Part shown: positions 1 through 12,057 of the stretch, one piece after another
Layout of the letters: every line of letters begins with the position of its first letter
Position numbering within the stretch: the first letter of the stretch is position 1
Origin: a virus
Strand: one strand, 5' to 3'
IMG/VR virus record: IMGVR_UViG_3300037840_000065
Coordinates: 1-25,048 of that record
Length of the DNA: 25,048 bases
Program-made: the position numbers and the translations under genes
The notes under the pieces: generated by a model
What the model was told of the DNA's origin: nothing
The model's input: only the letters and a program-made list of their open reading frames with translations
The model's database searches: none

Positions 1-1878
1 AGTCACGGGCTTGGCGACGTGGTGCAGCTTTCCGTCGTGCTGAAACACCTGCGCAAGTACCGATCCGATTGGATGGTCGATGTACGATGTGGGCGCGGCA
101 AACATACGGCTTTGATCGGCCTGTGTCACCGCGTCTATCACGACCAAGAGCCGGAATCGACCGAATCATACGATGAAACCTTCGATCTTGGCTGGTGGGA
201 GCATTACGGGCGATTCCCTAATTGCCCGAATAGCAAAGTCACCAACAACATGAAAGAGGTATTCGGCCTTGATTGGGACGAATCGCTAGGCCGCTATCAG
301 GTTAACGTCGGCACCGATGCGCTAGACCGAGCGCGCGGATACTATCAATCCATCGGAGCCAAAGAAAGCAACGGTCGCTTCAATGTGCTGCTTTTCCATA
401 CGTGCGGCAACACGTCCCCTGACAAGAAGAACCTGTTCCATTGGCAGGGAAAGGCTCTTGCCGACTTCGCCATCCACGCTGGCCGCATCCCCGTAATCTT
501 CGATTGGGACCACCGCAGCCCGCTTCCCGATGACAAGACGATCTTCTGCCCGCGCTCGAAAACGAAGATCGGCGACCGCGAACTGTGGGGCGAAGGCTGG
601 GGCTCGGGGGATGCCGAGGTCATCGCCGCCCTGCAAACGCTGGCAGAAGCCTACATCGGCATCGACAGCGGCCCTGGCAAGGTGGCGAGCGCCACGGAGA
701 CGCCCACGTTAATCTGCTGGATGCGGCATCATCCGATCCAGTTCCACGACCCAGCCGCGAACACGACGCATCTCGTGCCGAGCGACCATCGGCGAATGAC
801 GCCGTGCAGCGATGATAACCGGATAGCCGACTTCTTCGAGAAGCACTACCGATTCCGCACTTACGCTGGGGAGCATGGCATGGTCAGCGAGGCCAAGAAG
901 TGGCTTGGGGAGGTCTTCGGCTGCGGGCCAGCGGTGCCAACGTCGGTGCAATACGTGCTGCCCAACGGCATCGGGGACGTGGTGTGGGCGCTGATGAAGA
1001 TTCGCGCCGTCGCTGCGGGCAAGCCCATCGACATCATCCTGAGCGGGAACCCGAGCAACGAAATCGACCACCGCAGCGTCCCGTTCCTCAAGCGGTTCGA
1101 CTTCATCCGTAACGTCACGGTGATGGACCTGCCCGTACTTATCGACCGGGAGAAGCCTTCTGACGGGCAAGGCCGCTACCGATACGAGCCGGACGGCGTG
1201 AAGGGCCAGTACCACTATCTCGTGCCGAACGCGACACTCGAAGCCGGCAAGCGGCTGGAAACGTGGTTGCCGGACGTGCCAATTGACTGGTCGATCATGG
1301 ACCGCTTCAGTTGGGCAGGCACCGAGCGCGGCAGCGAACTGGCGTCGGCCTTGAAGCCGTTCGTGGCGTTCTACCTGGGGCCGGAGCGCGGGAACATCGA
1401 GGAAGGGCACAACCGGGGCTGGCAATGGGAGCCAAAGCACTGGATCGAGCTGGGGGGTGCCATCCACGACCGTGGATACAATATCGCCGTGGTCGGGGCG
1501 ACCTACGACCGCTCGTTCTGGGAGCGCTACGTCAAGGACGGTGTGGCGCAGGACAGCCAGATGTGGATTGACCTGATCGGCAAGCTGGAGATAGGCGAGA
1601 CACTTGCATTGCTGCGCCGGGCGGCGCTGGTTGTTTCGTATCAGTGCGGCTTGGGCATTTGTGCTCATTACTTGGGTACGCCGGTTGTGATGTGGTGGCG
1701 CCGCGAGGGGGACAGCGTGCATCCACGGCACATGATTTCGTTCAGTGAAGAAATGCGGAACGCTTGGGTTCGACCGGAGTACAAGGATCGTTATTTCGGC
1801 TGCATCTACCACCGGCAATCGGTTGGGGACATTCTGGCCGAAATCGACCATCGAGGTTGGTTAAATGAAGGACAATAG
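1..1878 (+). CDS. Two-domain GT9/heptosyltransferase-like glycosyltransferase (5' partial)
   Basis: The reading frame is open from base 1 (it reads SHGLGDVVQLSVVLKHLRKY). The paralog at 2673 has about 10 residues before the matching GLGD, so the true start lies just upstream of the window. Residues below count from the GTG at 19. Two GT-B-like units are visible. Unit 1 spans about 1-300, with the N-terminal GLGD and a DSGPGK element at 216-221, which corresponds to the DSGPxH donor-site motif of heptosyltransferases but with Lys in place of His. Unit 2 spans about 310-619, with NGIGD at 316-320 and YQCGLG at 541-546 followed by A..LGTPVV. The likely role is transfer of a nucleotide-activated sugar, plausibly ADP-heptose given the HldE-like gene downstream; the acceptor is unknown. 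The next gene overlaps its end by 14 bases. The fold family is fairly secure; the sugar and acceptor are inferred. Confidence 0.8.
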   Translation, partial: SHGLGDVVQLSVVLKHLRKYRSDWMVDVRCGRGKHTALIGLCHRVYHDQEPESTESYDETFDLGWWEHYGRFPNCPNSKVTNNMKEVFGLDWDESLGRYQVNVGTDALDRARGYYQSIGAKESNGRFNVLLFHTCGNTSPDKKNLFHWQGKALADFAIHAGRIPVIFDWDHRSPLPDDKTIFCPRSKTKIGDRELWGEGWGSGDAEVIAALQTLAEAYIGIDSGPGKVASATETPTLICWMRHHPIQFHDPAANTTHLVPSDHRRMTPCSDDNRIADFFEKHYRFRTYAGEHGMVSEAKKWLGEVFGCGPAVPTSVQYVLPNGIGDVVWALMKIRAVAAGKPIDIILSGNPSNEIDHRSVPFLKRFDFIRNVTVMDLPVLIDREKPSDGQGRYRYEPDGVKGQYHYLVPNATLEAGKRLETWLPDVPIDWSIMDRFSWAGTERGSELASALKPFVAFYLGPERGNIEEGHNRGWQWEPKHWIELGGAIHDRGYNIAVVGATYDRSFWERYVKDGVAQDSQMWIDLIGKLEIGETLALLRRAALVVSYQCGLGICAHYLGTPVVMWWRREGDSVHPRHMISFSEEMRNAWVRPEYKDRYFGCIYHRQSVGDILAEIDHRGWLNEGQ

Positions 1879-2455
1879 CGAGTATTACACGGAAGCGCTC
1901 GCGCTCCGCGAAGAGGTGGACTGGATTCTGCACCGGCCGCACGCCAAGATCGCGGAATGGCTGCTGCCGCGCATCGCCGCCAACAAATGCGAGACTGTGA
2001 TTGAGTTCGGCTGTGGCAGCGGCATTCTGGCTGCCATGCTTCCAGAGAAAAGCGACTATCTCGGCATCGACAGCAACCCGCACTTCATTCGTATGGCCCG
2101 CAACCGAAAGCCGGGATGGGCCTTTGTGAAGGATGACGTGCGCTACTGGTCTCCCGAGAAGACCTACGAACTGGCAATGGCCTGGAGCCTGTTCAAGCAC
2201 TTCTCGCTCAACGAGTGGAACGCCATCGTCGCCTGCGTGCTCGTTCACGGCCGCTTCGGCGCGTTCAACGTGCAGCTATCCGACCGCGACTTCGACGACG
2301 GCGTTGACTACCATCACGCACACGTCACCGAAGCCCATCTTGCGGAAGCGTTGGCGATGGCAGGGCACGAAGAAGTCGAGCGGCAGGTATTCAACGATTG
2401 GTCGGTGAACAGTGCGCCAGCGCGGGATGTGGCTATCTGGACAAAACGCAAATGA
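1865..2455 (+). CDS. Class I SAM-dependent methyltransferase
   Basis: This 196-residue protein has a Rossmann methyltransferase core. Motif I is EFGCGSG at 47-53, the acidic ribose-binding position is D69 in LGIDS, and a KDDVR segment lies at 89-93. The C-terminal part (FNVQLSDRD onward) fits the remaining strands of a small-molecule or sugar methyltransferase. The ATG at 1865 lies inside the end of the preceding glycosyltransferase gene (14-base overlap) and is preceded by GAGG at 1853-1856, 8 bases away. Its stop overlaps the next start as ATGA. Position inside a sugar cassette suggests methylation of a sugar or glycan, for example capping, but nothing in the sequence proves the substrate. 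DNA or protein methylation cannot be excluded, although no target-recognition domain is visible. Confidence 0.85.
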   Translation: MKDNSEYYTEALALREEVDWILHRPHAKIAEWLLPRIAANKCETVIEFGCGSGILAAMLPEKSDYLGIDSNPHFIRMARNRKPGWAFVKDDVRYWSPEKTYELAMAWSLFKHFSLNEWNAIVACVLVHGRFGAFNVQLSDRDFDDGVDYHHAHVTEAHLAEALAMAGHEEVERQVFNDWSVNSAPARDVAIWTKRK

Positions 2456-2673
2456 GACGTGAAGAAGATTTTTGCCCTATCTGTGGGGCATATGATCCAA
2501 GCATCAATTACCCTGGAGGCCACCAATGCGCTCCTGCGTCATTGCGTGGCATTGATTCAAGTATGCAACGCGATCCCGATTCGGAGGAACCGCGACAACG
2601 AACAGAAGGAAAACGATACTCTGAAGGCGTACAAATGCTTTGCCTTGTCGATAATTCGATTGAGGATTATTGA
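2452..2673 (+). CDS. Small CPxCG zinc-ribbon-like protein
   Basis: This 73-residue protein starts at the ATG that overlaps the methyltransferase stop (ATGA, 2452-2455). It ends with a TGA that overlaps the next start (TGATG, 2671-2675). Near the N-terminus C8-P-I-C11-G is followed by G-G-H-Q-C26, a plausible CxxC...HxC zinc site. The rest is charged and probably flexible. Small phage proteins with this CPxCG/GHxC pattern are common in uncharacterised contexts, and no function is known to me. A longer ORF in another frame (2459-2800) overlaps it, but it lacks the start/stop coupling and conserved-looking motifs. The DNA here is visibly AT-richer than its neighbours. Confidence 0.65.
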   Translation: MRREEDFCPICGAYDPSINYPGGHQCAPASLRGIDSSMQRDPDSEEPRQRTEGKRYSEGVQMLCLVDNSIEDY

Positions 2674-3974
2674 TGAAGCGCATTCTGCTGAGATTAACGG
2701 AAGGATATGGGCTCGGCGACGGAATCCAGTTCACGGTCGTCCTAAAGCACGTCCGCAAGTACCGTCCCGATTGGATCGTAGACTACCAGTGCGCGCCTGA
2801 TTGCGCCCGTGCTGCTATCGGCCTATGCAATGCCGTCTTCACTGACGCCGAACCTGCCACGGGCAAGTACGACCACGTTCTCGCCATCCAGCCACTGGAC
2901 AACTACAGCAACTTCCCAGACCGACCGAACACGAAGGTCACGGCAGCGCTGCACGAGAACTTCGGCATTCCATACGACCACGAGCTAGGCCGCTACGAAT
3001 GCTTCGTGAGCGACACGGCGCGGCACAAGGTCGAGCGCGCCGTGCGGAACGTGGACATCCCGCGCTACGCCGATGGCCGGTTCAAGGCGGTTCTGCTGCA
3101 CTATCAGGGCATGTCGTCCCCGCACCGCAAGAACCTGCAAGACTGGCAGGCCGATGCGATCCTGAAGGCGATTGCCGCCGCTGGCCGCACGCCGATTCTC
3201 GTGGACCGCGACGGCAAATCGCCGCTCAAGGCTCTGCGCATCAAGGGCATCGACGATTGCGAGGCGATGGCGGCGCTGATCTGGGCATGCGAGGCTTTCG
3301 TGGGTATTGACTCGGGGCCAGGTCATATCGCCAGCACGACCGACACCCCGACGCTCATTTGCTGGACGAAGAACCATCCGGTACAGTTCCACGATCCGGC
3401 ACCGAACACGACCCACATGATCCCTGTTGACCATCGCGACATCTCGCCAGCTGATGACGATGCCGTAGCTGCATACTTCGAGCGCGCGTACCTGTGGCGG
3501 ACCTACTACGGCGAGAACGGGCTTGTGGCACAGGTCACGCAATGGCTCGCCGGCCTGTTCCGCTGCGAGACGGCAGATACCGGCGTCACGTTTGTTGTGC
3601 CAGCCGATCCGAAAGCGTGTGCGTGGGTCATCGCCAAGATTCGCAGCGTGGCGCAGGGCCGGCCCATCGACGTGATCGTCAGCGAGGACTGGCGCACTGG
3701 ACGCGGACACCACGCCATGACCTTCCTGCGCAAGTTCGATTTCATTCGCTCGGTGAAGGTGTCGGACGTACCGGTCCACGTAGGCCCCGAGCGACCGCAG
3801 AACACGCGCGGGCACTACCTGTATGTACCCGATGGCTGGCGGGATGGATACTATTTCCTAGTGCCTTCTGCCACGATGCAGCTCGGCAAGACGCTCGCGG
3901 AGTGGATGCCGCAAGTGCCCATCGACGTGAAGGCGCTGGAGATGCTGAAGGAGGCCGGTTGTGACGCGGCTTGA
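2673..3974 (+). CDS. GT9/heptosyltransferase-like glycosyltransferase, truncated paralog of the first gene
   Basis: This 433-residue protein is a clear paralog of the product of 1-1878. Shared elements are YGLGD near the N-terminus, VVLKH.RKYR.DW, FHDPA.NTTH and FLRKFDFIR. The ATG at 2673 is preferred over the TTG at 2670: GAGG at 2662-2665 gives a 7-base spacing and the stop of the upstream gene overlaps it. Unit 1 is complete and keeps DSGPGH (213-218), with the canonical His that the first gene lacks. Unit 2 has only its N-terminal half; the NGIGD loop is replaced by PADPKAC, and the protein ends (VPIDVKALEMLKEAGCDAA) before the region that carries YQCGLG in gene 1. Only unit 1 is therefore likely to be catalytic. 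It may form a heteromer with gene 1 or transfer a second residue. Sugar and acceptor are inferred from context. Confidence 0.8.
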   Translation: MKRILLRLTEGYGLGDGIQFTVVLKHVRKYRPDWIVDYQCAPDCARAAIGLCNAVFTDAEPATGKYDHVLAIQPLDNYSNFPDRPNTKVTAALHENFGIPYDHELGRYECFVSDTARHKVERAVRNVDIPRYADGRFKAVLLHYQGMSSPHRKNLQDWQADAILKAIAAAGRTPILVDRDGKSPLKALRIKGIDDCEAMAALIWACEAFVGIDSGPGHIASTTDTPTLICWTKNHPVQFHDPAPNTTHMIPVDHRDISPADDDAVAAYFERAYLWRTYYGENGLVAQVTQWLAGLFRCETADTGVTFVVPADPKACAWVIAKIRSVAQGRPIDVIVSEDWRTGRGHHAMTFLRKFDFIRSVKVSDVPVHVGPERPQNTRGHYLYVPDGWRDGYYFLVPSATMQLGKTLAEWMPQVPIDVKALEMLKEAGCDAA

Positions 3975-4152
3975 GATCGACGGAACGGTTGTGCCTGCCG
4001 AACAACTGCATTTGTACGCTGTCCGCTTCGTGCAAGTTCCAGGCGGCGAGCCTGCTCTTTCCCTGTACCGCAACGGACTGCGGGTTGCGAAGGCATGGAC
4101 GCTGAAGCTGGACGTGTCGTGTGAGGCGAGTTCCTGCACTGCTCCAGGGTGA
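3961..4152 (+). CDS. Small protein of unknown function
   Basis: This 63-residue ORF has a GTG start at 3961, with a strong Shine-Dalgarno AAGGAGG at 3948-3954 and a 6-base spacer. It overlaps the end of the upstream glycosyltransferase gene by 14 bases. Its stop lies 3 bases before the ATG of the kinase-nucleotidyltransferase gene. The protein alternates hydrophobic and polar residues (LHLYAVRFVQV, LKLDVSCEASSC), suggesting a small beta-rich fold, and has two cysteines near the C-terminus. I do not recognise a family. The good ribosome-binding site and tight packing argue that it is expressed. Confidence 0.6.
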   Translation: MTRLEIDGTVVPAEQLHLYAVRFVQVPGGEPALSLYRNGLRVAKAWTLKLDVSCEASSCTAPG

Positions 4153-4155
4153 AAC

Positions 4156-5478
4156 ATGAGCCTTGATCTGGCGATGAAGCTGCAAGCGATTGGAAGGCCG
4201 AGGTGCTTAGTTATTGGCGACTACATCAATGATATTTCCATCGATTGCACGCCGCATCGGTTCGCGCAGGAAGCTGGTCACTGTCCGGTATACAAGCATG
4301 AGCGGCACGAATCGCGTCCAGGTGGCGCCGGCGCCGTACACGCGATGGCGCACGCTCTCGGCGCGGACGTTACCATCGTGTCGGGTCTGCGCCAGAACTC
4401 GGCCAGCAAGGAACGGTACTTCGTGAACGGCGTACAGGTTCTGCGCATCGATCGCGATGCCGAGCCACTGACCGATCATCGCGTAGCCGAAATGCTGGCC
4501 GCCATCGCCTACGAGATGCAGCGTGCCGACTGTGTGCTGATCGCTGACTACGGCAAAGGCGTCTTAACTCAAAGTGTTCTTCGTGCCGCCATTGAAGGTG
4601 CGTCCACGCGAGGTATCCCCTGTCTGGTCGATCCAGCCCACGGTGTTTCGTGGGATCGCTATCGCGGATGCACTGCGGTCAAATGTAATCAGCACGAATG
4701 GGACACCGCAAAGGATATTGTTCACGCCGAAAGTAATCATGGCCAAGACCTAAAGCTGATCTTCCATTTTCAGAATTGCATTGTTACTAATGGCGCGCAC
4801 GGCATGCACCATATCGGCGAGACGCCTACGTCGTGCAAGCAACGCAATGCCATCGACCCTACGGGCTGCGGCGACATGGTGCTGGCCGCGCTCGGTGTCT
4901 GCATCGCTGCCGGTCTGACGTGGCCCGATGTCTGCCAAATTGCAAACGCAGCCGCCGGCCTGAAATGCGAGCGCCGCGGCGCCGTCCCCGTGCCGCGTGC
5001 CGAAGTCGTGCTCGACTTACTCGACGGCGAGAAGCGCATCCAGCGTGCGCTGCTGCCAGTCGTCCGCGCCACTCGCCAGCGTGTCGTGTTCACAAACGGT
5101 TGCTTTCGGGTATGTCACGCTGGGCATGCGTGGCTCATGCGCTGGGCCAAAGAGCAAGGTGCCTGCCTTGTCGTCGGCGTGAACGATGACGAATCGGCCG
5201 CAAACTTGCGGCCCGGCGAGTATGTTATGCCGCTCGCCGAACGCATGGAGATCATCGCCGGCCTAGGCTGCGTCGATTACGTCGTGCCGTTCAGCGAGCC
5301 CGACCCGTGCGAACTTCTGCGCCTGCTCAAGCCGGACGTGCTCGTAAAGGGCGGCGAATATGCCGGCGAGCGCATTCCCGGCGACGACATGGTAGCTGAC
5401 GTGCGGATTGCGCCCGAGAGCCCGTATGCCACGCATGCCACGAGTCTGATTGCCGACCTTATCCAGAACCAGGATTAA
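4156..5478 (+). CDS. hldE-like: Bifunctional HldE/RfaE-like heptose-7-phosphate kinase / nucleotidyltransferase
   Basis: This 440-residue protein has two domains in HldE order. The PfkB-type kinase (about 16-290) has VIGD (19-22), PGGAGA (55-60), DYGKG (131-135), the VDP...RYRG segment (158-171) and the anion-hole/catalytic motif DPTGCGD (234-240; GAGD is usual). The nucleotidyltransferase (about 308-440) has TNGCF (313-317), HAGH (321-324), PLAERM (359-364) and VKGGEY (397-402). E. coli HldE phosphorylates D-glycero-beta-D-manno-heptose-7-phosphate and then adenylylates it to ADP-heptose. The protein is about 37 residues shorter than E. coli HldE; the missing part is mostly kinase lid between SG (76-77) and the KxR segment. 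NGCFRVCHAGH has Arg where the family usually has Asp. The start lies 3 bases after the previous stop. A related sugar phosphate remains possible. Confidence 0.85.
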   Translation: MSLDLAMKLQAIGRPRCLVIGDYINDISIDCTPHRFAQEAGHCPVYKHERHESRPGGAGAVHAMAHALGADVTIVSGLRQNSASKERYFVNGVQVLRIDRDAEPLTDHRVAEMLAAIAYEMQRADCVLIADYGKGVLTQSVLRAAIEGASTRGIPCLVDPAHGVSWDRYRGCTAVKCNQHEWDTAKDIVHAESNHGQDLKLIFHFQNCIVTNGAHGMHHIGETPTSCKQRNAIDPTGCGDMVLAALGVCIAAGLTWPDVCQIANAAAGLKCERRGAVPVPRAEVVLDLLDGEKRIQRALLPVVRATRQRVVFTNGCFRVCHAGHAWLMRWAKEQGACLVVGVNDDESAANLRPGEYVMPLAERMEIIAGLGCVDYVVPFSEPDPCELLRLLKPDVLVKGGEYAGERIPGDDMVADVRIAPESPYATHATSLIADLIQNQD

Positions 5479-6082
5479 CAGCAACTTGCGTTGATTTGGT
5501 GCTTTCGCCAGCCGAATTCACGCCCGTTATTTGGTAGTAATAATTTGTACCATTCATCAACCCGGTATCGGTATATGAAGTTGATGTTATTCCTGTCTGA
5601 TAAGGCGTGCTGCCTTCGCCACCACTACTAAGACTACGATAAAGATTGTAACTGGTCGCTCCTGGATCTGGATTCCATGTAAGCAATGCTTGGTTAAGAC
5701 CAGGCGTCCCAGAAAATCCGGTCGGCTGCGGTGGTACGCCACCAGATGATGACGAACTGGACGAACTGCCCGCGATGCAGCACGCGGTGCAATAAAGTGG
5801 CTGAGGGCTGTTGTCGCCAGGCCCCTGAAACGCACCGATCAAACGCGCATCGTAGTAAGCCGGCACCAATTTCACGCGATTCGGCTCGACTACGTAGGAC
5901 GTTTCCCGGTTGCGCATTTGCAAAGTCGATGGGTCAAGCTGCTGCACTACGCACGGGTAGATCGCTGGATTCGTTCCGCCGACTGCGGCCCCGGTCACGC
6001 GCACGATCTGCGCGAGCTGTGGGTAGATTGGCCATTCTGGGCCGAACCACGGCGGAACGATATTGGTGCTGTCGTCGTCCAT
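5459..6082 (-). CDS. Virion-like protein with poly-Ser linker and fibronectin type III domain
   Basis: This 207-residue protein has an N-terminal part (1-100) rich in aromatic and beta-type residues, a Cys cluster (C98, C101, C102), a linker of eight serines (106-113) followed by GGVPPQP, and a C-terminal fibronectin type III domain (about 118-205; the ALLTWNPDPGATSYNLYRS strands and the YYYQITGVNSAGES strands). FN3 domains are frequent on phage virion surfaces, where they are thought to bind glycans or cells. The ATG at 6082 lies 2 bases after the upstream stop and has AAGG 7-8 bases before it. This is the last gene of the minus-strand block, and its 3' end overlaps the convergent HldE-like gene by 20 bases. 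The poly-Ser tract closely matches one at 20872-20898 at the DNA level. Confidence 0.75.
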   Translation of the reverse strand: MDDDSTNIVPPWFGPEWPIYPQLAQIVRVTGAAVGGTNPAIYPCVVQQLDPSTLQMRNRETSYVVEPNRVKLVPAYYDARLIGAFQGPGDNSPQPLYCTACCIAGSSSSSSSSGGVPPQPTGFSGTPGLNQALLTWNPDPGATSYNLYRSLSSGGEGSTPYQTGITSTSYTDTGLMNGTNYYYQITGVNSAGESTKSTQVAVNPGSG

Positions 6083-8095: not shown

Positions 8096-8731
8096 GTGGC
8101 TCACTGTAAGTCTACAACTTCCATCCCGCCTTTTCCATCCGACATCGACCGCGACTACTTCGGAGCGTGGCTCTCAGGCTTTGTGGACGGCGAAGGATGT
8201 TTTTACCTTGGCGTTCACAAACGAAAAACAAGTACCGATTCGGCACGAGCCTTTTTCCAAATCAAAGTCCGTGACGACGATGAAGCAATAATTCGACGCA
8301 TTCAATCGTTTCTGCAATGCGGATGGGTTAAATTGGTTGCTGATCCTGGCCGAAGTGGAAACCATCAACCGCAAGCTGTTTTCCGTGTGAATAGCATTGT
8401 TGATTGCTTCAAAATCATCACCCCGATATTTGAAAAATACCCCTTACTCGCCAAGAAAGCCGATGATTTTCGCATTTGGTCTGAGGCGGTTCGCCTGTTC
8501 TATACGGTCTCATGCCGTCCTCGTAAGCGACATGTTTTATTCGGAAAAGGAACCGTCACAAGATGGGAGAAAGGCGAATTTAATACCTACCTGAAATTAA
8601 GCAACTTGCTCCGCAAAGCCCGTGCGTATCGCAATCGTTCAGATGGTAGGACCGTCAGGATCGAGGTTCTTGACGAAATCAGGCAACTCGACCTTTGGAG
8701 CGCTCCCGATATGTTTGACCAACAGCCGTGA
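8096..8731 (+). CDS. Free-standing LAGLIDADG homing endonuclease (single motif)
   Basis: This 211-residue protein carries WLSGFVDGEGCF at 25-36, a textbook LAGLIDADG helix (LSGFVDGEG aligned to LAGLIDADG), with E33 at the metal-binding acidic position. A YPLLAKKADDF segment at 116-126 matches the KYPL..KK region typical of the LAGLIDADG_1 family. Only one motif is present, so the active form should be a homodimer with a near-palindromic target. The GTG start has GAGG 6 bases upstream. The gene lies on the plus strand inside a minus-strand virion operon, its DNA is AT-richer, and its last 93 bases are antisense to the end of the flavoenzyme gene: signs of invasion by a mobile endonuclease. No intein or intron boundary is visible, so it is free-standing. 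Confidence 0.88.
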   Translation: MAHCKSTTSIPPFPSDIDRDYFGAWLSGFVDGEGCFYLGVHKRKTSTDSARAFFQIKVRDDDEAIIRRIQSFLQCGWVKLVADPGRSGNHQPQAVFRVNSIVDCFKIITPIFEKYPLLAKKADDFRIWSEAVRLFYTVSCRPRKRHVLFGKGTVTRWEKGEFNTYLKLSNLLRKARAYRNRSDGRTVRIEVLDEIRQLDLWSAPDMFDQQP

Positions 8732-10120
8732 TGCTGTGTTAGCACTTATCAAAGCGCCATTCAATGTTGAGTCGAAAAAATAATCCCCAACAAGAAATAC
8801 GCCTGGACAATCTTCGCAAGGCTGGTGTTCGCCTTCCAGTTCTTCAACAGGCCATGAACCGGGCTGGGCATTCAAACTACCGAGATAGCGGTCCACCTGC
8901 GCCTCGACAAACTCGCCGGCAGCCTTAGCTGCCATGTCCGCCGGCATCGAATCCAGCACGTACCGGACAATGCACTCGTCAGACTGATTGTGCGAACACA
9001 TGAGTAAAGCATCTTGTCCGGCAATCAAGAAGCTCAGCACATGTCCGCGCGTACTGCGCCAGCGCGTGCTTTCGTCGTACACACACATGCCATTCATGAC
9101 ATCCATCATCCAAAACTCGCCCGGCATACCCATGTCCTGCCACCACATCGACCGGAACCGCATCGTCACGCGCAAATAGTGGGCAGGCAGGTCATAGTGA
9201 GCGCACACGCTGTGGATGGCCTCGCGCAGCTTCTCACCTTCCCACGCAATTTGCGAGAGCCAGTGGTTCGGCAGGCACACAATGACCTGATCGAAGTCTT
9301 GATGGCTGTCGCTATCATCGCTCTTGAACGCCACGCGATATTGCTCGCCGACTTTGCCGATGCCGCACACGCGCACACCGAGCCGCACGTCAGCCTTGAT
9401 CTTGCTCGCCAACGTCTTGGCAACTTTGCCGATGCCGCCGATGACGTGATAAAGCTGCATGTACTCGTCGTTGTCCATCAGCACGTTCTTGATGCCGTTC
9501 AAGCCGTTGCAGGTCCACGGCTCCGTAGCCAGGTCACTGTGAACGCTTGCTAGGATGTAGGCCCGTGCATCCGGGTTGTCCGGCAGTTCTTTGTGCAGGC
9601 ATTCCCAGAACGTCAGCGGCGCCCACGGATGCGAGTTGTCCGGCTGCCAGCGGTTCGCGTACTTGTCCAGCGGCATCAGTTCAGCTGCCCGCTTGTGGAA
9701 GCACTTGACGGCTTCGCGCGTCGGCTCATCGAGCGCATCGTAGTCCGGCAATGGCTTGTCGCCCATGACCACGCCGCCGCCGCTCATGTTCACCGTCTTG
9801 AGCCCGAGGTCGTCTTCGATGAGTGTCCGCAGCGGGTCTGCTTTCTTGCCGTGGTACTCGTACAGTTCGGCGACCCCGGCCTCGAAGCGCGTGCCGTCGC
9901 TGAACTTGTCCGTGCGAATCTTGCCGCCGAGTCGGTTGCTCGCCTCGAAGATCGTGACATGCACATCGGGCAAGCGCAGGTTGAGGATGTACGCCGCGAA
10001 TAAGCCGCCCGGTCCCCCGCCAATAATGGCAACGTGCGGATCGGAGCGCAGCCAGCGGCCCTCGCCGGCGCTGACCCAGCCTTTGCCAGGGGATTCTGAG
10101 CTGAAGCGTTCCTCAATCAT
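8639..10120 (-). CDS. FAD-dependent amine-oxidase-like flavoenzyme
   Basis: This 493-residue protein is an FAD/NAD-linked oxidoreductase of the amine oxidase/protoporphyrinogen oxidase type. VAIIGGGPGGLF (GGGPGG at 34-39) is the dinucleotide-binding loop, E59 in IFEAS is the ribose-binding acid and RLGGKIRT follows as usual. Near the C-terminus FLVGDYFFDSTLNGALISANTASRL carries the GD...S.NGA..S motif that closes the FAD site. The ATG at 10120 overlaps the stop of the minor head gene as ATGA; longer in-frame starts would lie deep in that gene. The substrate is unknown. Coupling to a head gene is unusual for an enzyme. The last about 20 residues extend past the usual family end and are antisense to the homing endonuclease, so the C-terminus may have been altered by that insertion. 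Confidence 0.85.
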   Translation of the reverse strand: MIEERFSSESPGKGWVSAGEGRWLRSDPHVAIIGGGPGGLFAAYILNLRLPDVHVTIFEASNRLGGKIRTDKFSDGTRFEAGVAELYEYHGKKADPLRTLIEDDLGLKTVNMSGGGVVMGDKPLPDYDALDEPTREAVKCFHKRAAELMPLDKYANRWQPDNSHPWAPLTFWECLHKELPDNPDARAYILASVHSDLATEPWTCNGLNGIKNVLMDNDEYMQLYHVIGGIGKVAKTLASKIKADVRLGVRVCGIGKVGEQYRVAFKSDDSDSHQDFDQVIVCLPNHWLSQIAWEGEKLREAIHSVCAHYDLPAHYLRVTMRFRSMWWQDMGMPGEFWMMDVMNGMCVYDESTRWRSTRGHVLSFLIAGQDALLMCSHNQSDECIVRYVLDSMPADMAAKAAGEFVEAQVDRYLGSLNAQPGSWPVEELEGEHQPCEDCPGVFLVGDYFFDSTLNGALISANTASRLLVKHIGSAPKVELPDFVKNLDPDGPTI

Positions 10121-12057
10121 TTGCACCACTTCCTTGGGATGCGGAGACGGATACCGCGAATACGTGGCTCTGGTATCACATCCATGAGCGACATATTGGC
10201 TCCGCGTGACGATTTGATCCACATTTCGCTTTGGTTCTTGAGCACCTGCCGTACTTGATCTATCGCGGCCTTTCGGCTGCGCGACTTGCCTGCAATTCCA
10301 AGAGACTGCACAGCAGCGGCCAACTGATCGTCGGGCAGTTTTGCAAGCGGTTGAACCGCATGCTCTATCAGTTCTGTCCCGACATTTCCGGTCTTGATGC
10401 CATCAAGGTATGCTTTCACGGACGCCACTGCGGTCTGACCTTCTTGTGATAGCACAGGTTGTTGCTGCTGTGCAGGTCGCTGTTGCGGCTTTGGCTTCGC
10501 GAGTCGCGCGACGGATTGCAAAATCTGTTCTCGCGTCAGCCCGGTCTCGGCAGCCATCTTGTTGAGGTATTCGGCTACGACAGTATCGTGTTGCGCCGGC
10601 GCTGTTTCTGGTTGCTGCTGTTGCTCGCCTGATTGTTGCTCACCAGTTCGCTTCCAAATCTTGCCGCCTTTTTCGCCCACTCCAACCTGTTTCCAATCTG
10701 GTCCGGGCGCTTGCGGACCATGCCATTCATCCCCGACCATGCCGAGACACGCTCCCCATTGTTCAAGCGACTGCATCGAAAGCTGAATCGACAGCGGCAC
10801 GCTTTCACGCACGAAGCCTGCTGGCGGTGAAAATGGCGGCATCGGCACGAACGCGGGCGGCGTTGGTTCCACGCCTGTGTCCAGCCAGCGCTGGGCTTCG
10901 GCCACACCTTCTTCGGCGGCTTGGCGCACGGTCATGGGTATCCACGAGCAGCGATCGTTAAAATCCCACGGCGGCCGAAAGGTCTGAAACACCGGGTCAT
11001 CCGTGCGGTAGACATTACTGCCATCAATACCGTGCTTCTCCAGAGCAAGATGGTTGTGCCGTACCCGTTGATCGTGAATAGCGTGGTAACTGCTGAACGG
11101 GAAGCCGCTCTTGATAAATGGATGGCGCAGCACGTTCATCTGCCCGTCCGAGAACGCCGACTGGATATTCGTGCGGAAGATGTTCTCCATGTGCGGTTCA
11201 CCGAGGAACGATTCCGCGCCCACAGTCGCCAGAGCCTTTTCCCGGAACGCCTCATAGTCAGCCCCCTGCGCCACGTTCTCGGCCAGCAAGTCCCGGATCG
11301 TCGTCAGCGTCTCTTCCGCATCCACGCCGGCCACCGTGAACGCCTTCGCTCGCGCCGCCGCGTCCAGGTTGTCGTAGGCCGCGCGGTCCATCACGTTCTT
11401 TGTGGACAGTTCGCGAGCCGCTTCCTCGATGATCGGATACTGCACGCGCCCAGGATCGTCTGCGCCAGGCACCGGCGGCACCACGACCGGCGCAGGCTGC
11501 GCGTCGATAGCGCTGCGCACATACTGCTGCTGGTCAGGCGGCAGGTTATAGATGCGCTGCTCGCGCTGCGTGGCAGGCAACGCTCTTAGACGCTCTAGGA
11601 GAGCCGTAGCGTCGTCAGGCGGTAAAGTTGCCGGTAAAGGTGCCGATGCGCCGGCTGGCGGCACAACAGGCACATGCTGGGCCACCTCGCGGGCGCCTTC
11701 AAGCAGCGCAGCTACCTGCGTGCTGCCGAGCAAGCTGGCGAGCTGTACGCGGTAGTTCTGCACGAACCTGACCATTGCCTGTGCGGACTCAGCAGGCTCG
11801 GGTAAGCGGATGGCGGCCTCCAGTTCGGCGCGGGCGGCGATGGAGAGGTCGCGGGCGGCGCGCAGGGCGCGGTTTAAGATCGACTGGGCACGCCGGTTGT
11901 AAATATCGTGGGAGAGGTACGCATCGACCGGCAGCTTTGGCAGTGGCGCCGGCTGCATCTCGACAGCCATTTCTGCCGCAAGCAGCGCTTCCCCGAGGTC
12001 AGCGCCTTCGTTTAGCGCTCGCACAAAGAGCGTTCTGTGCCACTCGGTTGCGGTCAT
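10117..12057 (-). CDS. Minor head protein, SPP1 gp7/Mu gpF-type head morphogenesis family
   Basis: This 646-residue protein has the hallmark core of the Mu F-like/SPP1 gp7 family at about 290-380: RTNIQSAFSDGQ (295-306), YHAIHDQRVRHNH (324-336), a DDP segment, and PPWDFNDRCSW (362-372). These proteins bind the portal and sit inside the head or help DNA entry. The N-terminal 200 residues are helical and Pro/Ala-rich. The core is followed by a Gln-rich linker (about 460-540) and a C-terminal helical module (LPDDQLAAAVQSLGIAGKSRS...) that resembles a small SAP-like DNA-binding unit; that part is a guess. The start overlaps the portal stop as ATGA, and the stop overlaps the flavoenzyme start as ATGA. 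The family call is strong; the tail-end module is uncertain. Confidence 0.88.
   Translation of the reverse strand: MTATEWHRTLFVRALNEGADLGEALLAAEMAVEMQPAPLPKLPVDAYLSHDIYNRRAQSILNRALRAARDLSIAARAELEAAIRLPEPAESAQAMVRFVQNYRVQLASLLGSTQVAALLEGAREVAQHVPVVPPAGASAPLPATLPPDDATALLERLRALPATQREQRIYNLPPDQQQYVRSAIDAQPAPVVVPPVPGADDPGRVQYPIIEEAARELSTKNVMDRAAYDNLDAAARAKAFTVAGVDAEETLTTIRDLLAENVAQGADYEAFREKALATVGAESFLGEPHMENIFRTNIQSAFSDGQMNVLRHPFIKSGFPFSSYHAIHDQRVRHNHLALEKHGIDGSNVYRTDDPVFQTFRPPWDFNDRCSWIPMTVRQAAEEGVAEAQRWLDTGVEPTPPAFVPMPPFSPPAGFVRESVPLSIQLSMQSLEQWGACLGMVGDEWHGPQAPGPDWKQVGVGEKGGKIWKRTGEQQSGEQQQQPETAPAQHDTVVAEYLNKMAAETGLTREQILQSVARLAKPKPQQRPAQQQQPVLSQEGQTAVASVKAYLDGIKTGNVGTELIEHAVQPLAKLPDDQLAAAVQSLGIAGKSRSRKAAIDQVRQVLKNQSEMWIKSSRGANMSLMDVIPEPRIRGIRLRIPRKWCK

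Follow-up and report, generated by a model that had tools for sequence, protein, structure and literature searches.

A putative sugar-activation and glycosyl-transfer cassette beside the late structural genes of a phage

The IMG/VR virus record IMGVR_UViG_3300037840_000065, a complete linear contig of 25,048 bases analysed over its whole length (hereafter referred to as the window), begins with a plus-strand gene cassette (positions 1-5478) that features GT9-type and HldE-like proteins and may serve the activation and transfer of a sugar by the phage. The segment is filled by six plus-strand open reading frames (ORFs), which overlap by 14 bases, by ATGA, by TGATG, and again by 14 bases, or are separated by a gap of 3 bases. 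The last of them shares 20 bases with a convergent gene on the minus strand. The locus comprises the following features (aa, amino acids; SAM, S-adenosylmethionine):

1..1878, plus strand: tandem GT9-type protein of 625 aa with an open 5' end, matching PF01075 in two stretches
1865..2455, plus strand: SAM-dependent class I methyltransferase of 196 aa (PF13649, Methyltransf_25, E 1.2e-9)
2452..2673, plus strand: possible ORF of 73 aa with a CPIC pair, joined to both neighbours by the ATGA and TGATG overlaps
2673..3974 (alternative TTG start at 2670), plus strand: shortened GT9 paralogue (PF01075, 28.6 bits)
3961..4152, plus strand: small protein of 63 aa with a GTG start, directly 5' of the HldE-like gene and with homologues in relatives
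4156..5478, plus strand: HldE-like protein of 440 aa, assessed with the model NF008454, an AlphaFold model, fold matches, and domain trees
5459..6082, minus strand: convergent tail-type gene with a C-terminal fn3 domain (PF00041, E 4e-6) and matches to PHROG tail families

A previous sequence-only reading of this DNA had described six plus-strand genes overlapping or lying within 3 bases of each other, including a SAM methyltransferase, and a convergent virion gene. This arrangement agrees with the ORF coordinates, with the PF13649 match, and with the fn3 domain and tail families of the 5459-6082 product, the N-terminal part of which is conserved in related phages.

The same reading had named two GT9/heptosyltransferase-like proteins, and both products indeed exceed the PF01075 gathering cut-off of 22 bits (47.7 bits for 1-1878 and 28.6 bits for 2673-3974), but their description has to be corrected. 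The first protein consists of two GT9-type halves (residues ~1-300 and ~313-625, the first residues being missing at the contig edge), and the second is a truncated paralogue with 42% identity to residues 2-442 of the tandem protein, in which the first half is complete and the second stops before the donor-binding part. The first half of the tandem protein features the motifs GLGD, KKNL (KNL), and GIDSGPG, which are kept in the eight aligned proteins wherever the region is present and which, as judged by eye, would represent the base Asp, donor Lys, and donor Asp of WaaC/TibC. In this correspondence, the base Asp and donor Lys are matched to D110 and K230 of TibC, both of which are essential in that enzyme (PMC4358343). 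Within the second half, GIGD is kept; in the HMMER alignment to WaaF, the donor Asp is replaced by Gln in six out of six sequences (SYQCGL; SYQCGLG in the window), and no Lys is present at the RWP position. A loss of the donor site from both GT9-like proteins is, thus, not what the alignments pointed to: by sequence, the canonical residues are retained in the first half, and two of them have been lost from the second.

The structural model of the tandem protein is of moderate confidence (predicted local distance difference test, pLDDT, 69 overall), with a poorly modelled first half. The second half was matched to structures of the GT-B fold, namely 3tov (Z 18.6), WaaF 1psw (Z 17.2), WaaC (Z ~15.5), and the TibC/AAH type (Z 14.6), an iron-bound dodecamer with sugar contacts through Arg286 and Trp305, to which the likeness seen was limited to the fold. 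A profile of the first half matched no GT9 structure by sequence, and no significant score resulted when profiles of the two halves were compared with each other; the evidence for a shared origin is therefore the pair of PF01075 matches.

The product of 4156-5478 had been interpreted as an HldE-like fused kinase-nucleotidyltransferase, and here domain order, fold matches, and the motifs GxGD and HxGH all agree. An HldA-like PfkB kinase domain (PF00294, residues ~1-290) is followed by an HldC-like nucleotidyltransferase domain (PF01467, ~300-440), and the rfaE kinase and rfaE nucleotidyltransferase domains were detected with E values of 1e-46 and 5e-34, respectively. The AlphaFold model (pLDDT 90) was most similar to HldA 4e84 (Z 34.0, root-mean-square deviation 2.2 Å over 280 residues), followed by ribokinases (Z 27), and the nucleotidyltransferase half matched HldC 5xf2 with an E value of 1.2e-11. 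In an alignment of the window protein with Escherichia coli HldE and 81 viral sequences, the kinase half was found to keep GxGD (as GCGD), DYxKG (D131, Y132, and K134), and the residues K106, R108, R118, and D120 (E. coli numbering), and the nucleotidyltransferase half to keep TNG, HxGH (as HAGH), VKG, and R396.

Since the contig ends at base 1, related phages were examined in place of the DNA 5' of it. When the HldE-like and GT9 proteins were used as single queries against viral contigs, no match was returned, nor did a two-sequence alignment retrieve any, and the tandem GT9 protein had no match among 50,697 phage records. Relatives were retrieved by means of a degenerate DNA motif for HPxxQFHDP, drawn from the GT9 paralogues, and this motif scan yielded six related IMG/VR phages (G001 to G006), represented by incomplete records of 58-88 kb. 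Five of them encode the tandem GT9 protein at full length with 56-59% identity, and G003 has the first half only. An HldE relative is present in five of the six phages, at a distance of 2-5 kb from the GT9 gene in G002, G004, G005, and G006 and of 17 kb in G001. Homologues of the portal, Mu F-like, and tail genes of the window were detected in G002, G005, and G006, which identifies the relatives as remote members of a single phage group.

Homologues of the window methyltransferase are encoded near the cassette in G001, G002, G004, and G006, and the islands of the relatives also feature further GT9 proteins, GT1/GT47-like glycosyltransferases, Methyltransf_24 O-methyltransferases, radical SAM proteins, and, in G006, one nucleotide-sugar dehydratase/epimerase (PF01370, also matching GDP_Man_Dehyd). 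Judging from this gene content, the island is predicted to handle glycans, and the gene pairing does not appear accidental. Beyond the six phages, a contig from a metagenome-assembled genome (MAG) labelled Gemmataceae (L126) encodes a tandem GT9 protein convergent with the same tail genes and, by these tail genes, is evidently a phage contig. On a second MAG contig, labelled Hyphomicrobiales (L127), a single GT9-type protein overlaps a PfkB kinase with no nucleotidyltransferase, and the contig ends soon after. Among the island genes of the relatives, a sugar-type C-methyltransferase of the kind acting on nucleoside-diphosphate (NDP) sugars (PF08421, PF13489, and PF08484) adjoins the tandem GT9 gene of G001 (L109 7537-8697). 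The radical SAM proteins were found in the islands of three relatives (L111 3741-4670, L113 12890-13756, and L115 11532-12527), one of them with a SPASM domain, and a fragment was found in G001.

Based on these results, we propose that positions 1-5478 represent a phage sugar-activation and glycosyl-transfer cassette that is expressed convergently with the late structural genes and has a virion protein as its most likely acceptor, a reading that we regard as evenly poised. Its parts differ in strength. Activation and transfer of some sugar by the cassette is quite probable and well supported, because the GT9/HldE pairing recurs together with glycosyltransferases and methyltransferases in the relatives. 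A virion acceptor is mildly favoured over the envelope, and whether the activated sugar would be heptose is finely balanced. Accordingly, the view of the sequence-only reading that the phage makes and attaches its own activated sugar stands in so far as HldE-type and GT9 enzymes co-occur beside late genes, recurring in five of the six relatives, but heptose as the product is not secured.

In the proposed pathway, the HldA-like kinase half, with its conserved catalytic residues, would phosphorylate a host-made sugar 7-phosphate at C1, and a host phosphatase of the GmhB type would presumably remove the 7-phosphate. By homology, the HldC-like half would then couple the sugar 1-phosphate with a nucleotide to yield an NDP-sugar, possibly adenosine-diphosphate heptose (ADP-heptose) or a close analogue, the specificity being uncertain. 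The GT9 proteins, chiefly the first half of the tandem protein, would transfer the sugar to its acceptor, as suggested by homology and co-occurrence, and the methyltransferase, which likely modifies sugar or acceptor, may trim or cap the product. The acceptor would most likely be a virion protein of the phage itself and less likely the host envelope.

Several results weigh against this proposal. Although the HldE-family profile searches that had been recommended returned matches far above chance, no equivalog cut-off was reached: the HldE model NF008454 gave an E value of 3.8e-67 and 226.9 bits compared to a cut-off of 521, and the HldE domain models gave 159 of 345 and 117.2 of 181.5 bits. 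The equivalog cut-offs for lipopolysaccharide (LPS) heptosyltransferases were likewise missed by the GT9 proteins (TIGR02193, 23.5 versus 185.3 bits; TIGR02195, 32.9 versus 134.6 bits). The kinase half has a shortened lid and features Ala in GGAAN, where 50 of the 82 other aligned sequences have Asn and 32 have Leu. Within the nucleotidyltransferase half, Asp350 is changed to Arg in the window, G001, G002, G004, and G006; it is Asp in 81 of the 82 others, a comparison set that was chosen by two peptide patterns not covering the altered positions and is not a random sample, the sole exception, L016, being identical with the G001 contig. Furthermore, the KG..RP loop is reduced in the window (Arg plus a gap at the KG site), G001, G002, and G004, G006 retaining KG without RP, and none of the five Arg-bearing sequences has kept STT (HAT takes its place in the window). 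KG is among the substrate motifs predicted for HldC by docking (PMC7993394), and the motif (F/L)xxGxSTT, described in a review for heptose nucleotidyltransferases (PMC11461863), is lost in the window clade. The exchange of Asp for Arg, the loss of STT, and the loss of KG in most of these sequences render ADP-heptose less secure as the product; the earlier proposal that the cassette makes this compound is, thus, backed by HldE-type homology and weakened by the missed cut-offs, the KG and STT losses, and the altered pocket.

The composition of the cassette in other phages also weighs against the proposal. G006 retains the nucleotidyltransferase only and lacks the kinase, and in the nucleotidyltransferase of G005, HxGH reads GAHH, with Asp, KG..RP, and STT intact, so that the full gene set is not always retained; in L126, no HldE-like gene lies between the tandem GT9 gene and the tail genes. 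In addition, the window and its six relatives, seven incomplete records altogether, yielded no match to GmhA (SIS_2), GmhB, or HldD, and one generic epimerase was seen, in G006. GmhA and GmhB had been expected either outside the window or from the host, and of these options, supply of the missing steps by the host is the likeliest. TibC glycosylates protein with ADP-D,D-heptose (PMC4358343), and HldD would, therefore, be unnecessary for a TibC-like role. With regard to G005, the HldE-like protein with GAHH (L115 18519-19805) is accompanied by a reported TGA inside the tandem GT9 match, for which joint decay or a sequencing error is possible.

The HldE-like gene itself probably represents a mosaic. 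A full-length HldE tree had put the window protein outside the other GT9-linked proteins, which prompted separate domain trees, and the mosaic interpretation was made after this result. In the nucleotidyltransferase-domain tree, the five Arg-bearing sequences form one clade (support 100/98). In the kinase-domain tree, the window groups with E. coli-type sequences, and G001, G002, G004, G005, and L127 form a separate clade; the window kinase is a long branch, and its exact placement is unsure. A single group of all GT9-linked kinases was rejected (approximately unbiased test, p 0.005; 0.010 after removal of two long-branch rows). The kinase would, thus, be of different ancestry from the nucleotidyltransferase, and in the simplest reading, the GT9 protein and the altered nucleotidyltransferase move together, with kinase modules being swapped, as suggested by the differing domain trees and by the missing kinase of G006. 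The annotated phage H2/MT838225 looks bacterial, its HldE gene adjoining a nucleotide-sugar epimerase gene, and was used as an outgroup only; AGRM01000002, a piece of a Salmonella assembly, was set aside.

These findings lend substance to a first alternative, which we consider a realistic though lesser possibility, namely that the sugar activated by the enzyme is not heptose and that the re-tooled nucleotidyltransferase supplies the GT9 proteins with a new NDP-sugar. The changes are clade-wide, affect positions that are fixed in other viral HldE proteins, and co-occur with the tandem GT9 protein; moreover, the window kinase has apparently been exchanged with the nucleotidyltransferase domain being kept, and the relatives encode a nucleotide-sugar dehydratase/epimerase and a sugar C-methyltransferase. 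However, among characterised proteins, those closest to either domain are heptose enzymes, the docking-based motif assignments are predictions (PMC7993394), and the changes could concern the nucleotide instead of the sugar. A more elaborate version, which appears decidedly doubtful, is that a nucleotidyltransferase derived from HldC, its sugar pocket re-shaped, produces an NDP-sugar of a non-standard kind with which a dedicated two-headed GT9 protein decorates virion proteins, the kinases being swapped as the sugar-phosphate supply of the host changes.

The cassette might instead alter the LPS or another envelope glycan of the host, for example, by blocking superinfection or by hiding receptors from progeny phage, which we regard as rather unlikely. 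The LPS inner core is the usual target of GT9 enzymes with established functions, and the additional glycosyltransferases of the relatives could build a short chain. LPS-changing glycosyltransferase operons have also been described on horizontally acquired elements (PMC3688519). Stable conversion, however, is improbable given that the seven incomplete records yielded neither an integrase nor a resolvase, a weak argument for a lytic role and against lysogenic conversion; family scans also recognised no membrane transferase or flippase in the cassette, and both absences fit a cytoplasmic target in lytic growth, as envisaged for virion glycosylation. An action on LPS would further presuppose a host that has LPS; as to the host, the Gemmataceae and Hyphomicrobiales bins of the two MAG contigs are weak hints.

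A third explanation, that the genes are decaying or represent cargo ('stuffer') without a current phage function, has some precedent, as a role as 'stuffer DNA' has been considered for the LPS clusters of cyanophages (PMC3037559). It would account for the truncated second GT9 copy, the GT9 half without donor residues, the missing first His of HxGH in G005, and the missing kinase in G006. It is nevertheless improbable, because selection is indicated by the identity level of the tandem GT9 protein, maintained over 620 residues in five phages with long invariant stretches, by open frames, by normal codon-position base composition, and by the conservation of partner genes. A DNA- or nucleotide-modifying glycosylation system is highly improbable, as DNA methyltransferases do occur near the island in G002 and G004, but the window showed no gene of the hydroxymethylase type and we know of no GT9 enzyme with a DNA acceptor.

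Compared with known systems, the proposed sugar-activation and transfer cassette is not of a new kind. Cyanophage LPS clusters have been reported (PMC3037559), and in P-SSM2 and S-CAM1, genes for an HldC-like protein, a kinase, and a phosphoheptose isomerase lie beside tail-fibre genes. The cyanophage cassettes (P-SSM2, S-CAM1, and S-SSM7) resemble the window in combining an HldC-like nucleotidyltransferase and a PfkB kinase near tail-type genes, but there the two enzymes are separate and GmhA is annotated, whereas in the window they are fused and the pocket is altered; a tandem GT9 protein of the window type matched none of the 50,697 phage records. Bacterial HldE, or HldA together with HldC, shares the kinase-then-nucleotidyltransferase order, the HldA and HldC folds, HxGH, and GxGD with the window protein, which in contrast scores under half the cut-off, has lost KG and STT, carries the exchanges of Asp for Arg and, in GGAAN, of Asn for Ala, and combines halves of unlike ancestry. 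The GT9 proteins share motifs with WaaC/WaaF and TibC, to which the second half of the tandem protein was also matched in its GT-B fold, but unlike these, the tandem protein has two GT9 halves in one chain, the second without donor Asp and Lys. The HldE protein of a huge phage (LR756511) is likewise full-length, fused, and encoded near glycosyltransferases, but has canonical motifs, no tandem GT9 gene seen adjoining, and a place in another clade. Virus-encoded heptose-type activation is also represented by the viral NDP-heptose enzymes of Tang et al. (2024), of which, according to the review in PMC11461863, at least one viral set is active; the (F/L)xxGxSTT motif given there for heptose nucleotidyltransferases is absent from the window clade. 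HldE alone is not rare in viral contigs either, with at least 559 relatives. The features that appear to be new, at least to us, are a tandem GT9 protein accompanied by an island of partner genes, a nucleotidyltransferase specific to its clade, and an HldE of probable mosaic origin.

If the proposed reading is true, phages would keep and re-tool a sugar-activation and transfer pathway tied to their late genes, which goes beyond the borrowing of heptose genes, and the cassette would represent a case of phage-encoded glycosylation of the virion or the host envelope with a possible new nucleotide-sugar enzyme specificity. Homology alone is insufficient for the label 'ADP-heptose synthase'.

The two small ORFs of the cassette differ in their standing. 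The frame at 2452-2673 had no family match in profile scans of the window proteins, and its third-position guanine-plus-cytosine content (0.36 versus 0.65-0.78 in the other five cassette ORFs) is atypical, for which reason it may not be a gene. The 63-aa ORF at 3961-4152 is supported as a gene by homologues in four relatives, namely G001, G005, G006, and G002, in the last of which it is fused to a methyltransferase. The protein features a conserved pattern of the LYxDGxRVxxxW type and is linked to the HldE-like or the methyltransferase gene in several related phages. Scans with Rfam, for tRNA genes, and with PADLOC yielded no hit relevant to the cassette.

The minus-strand structural module of the window comprises genes for head decoration, Mu Gp36-like, Mu-like portal, and Mu F-like proteins. 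A protein of the flavin-containing amine oxidase family (PF01593, E 7e-25) is encoded within this module at 8639-10222 (minus strand), in the interval from the Mu F-like gene to the tail genes; it had no match among the 50,697 phage records and has a homologue in the equivalent place in G002 (L110 9702-11240). On the strand opposite to the structural genes, a LAGLIDADG homing endonuclease is encoded at 8096-8731 (plus strand; PF00961, E 4e-18), and its homologue in G002 (L110 6825-7469) likewise lies on the opposite strand and adjoins the Mu F-like gene.

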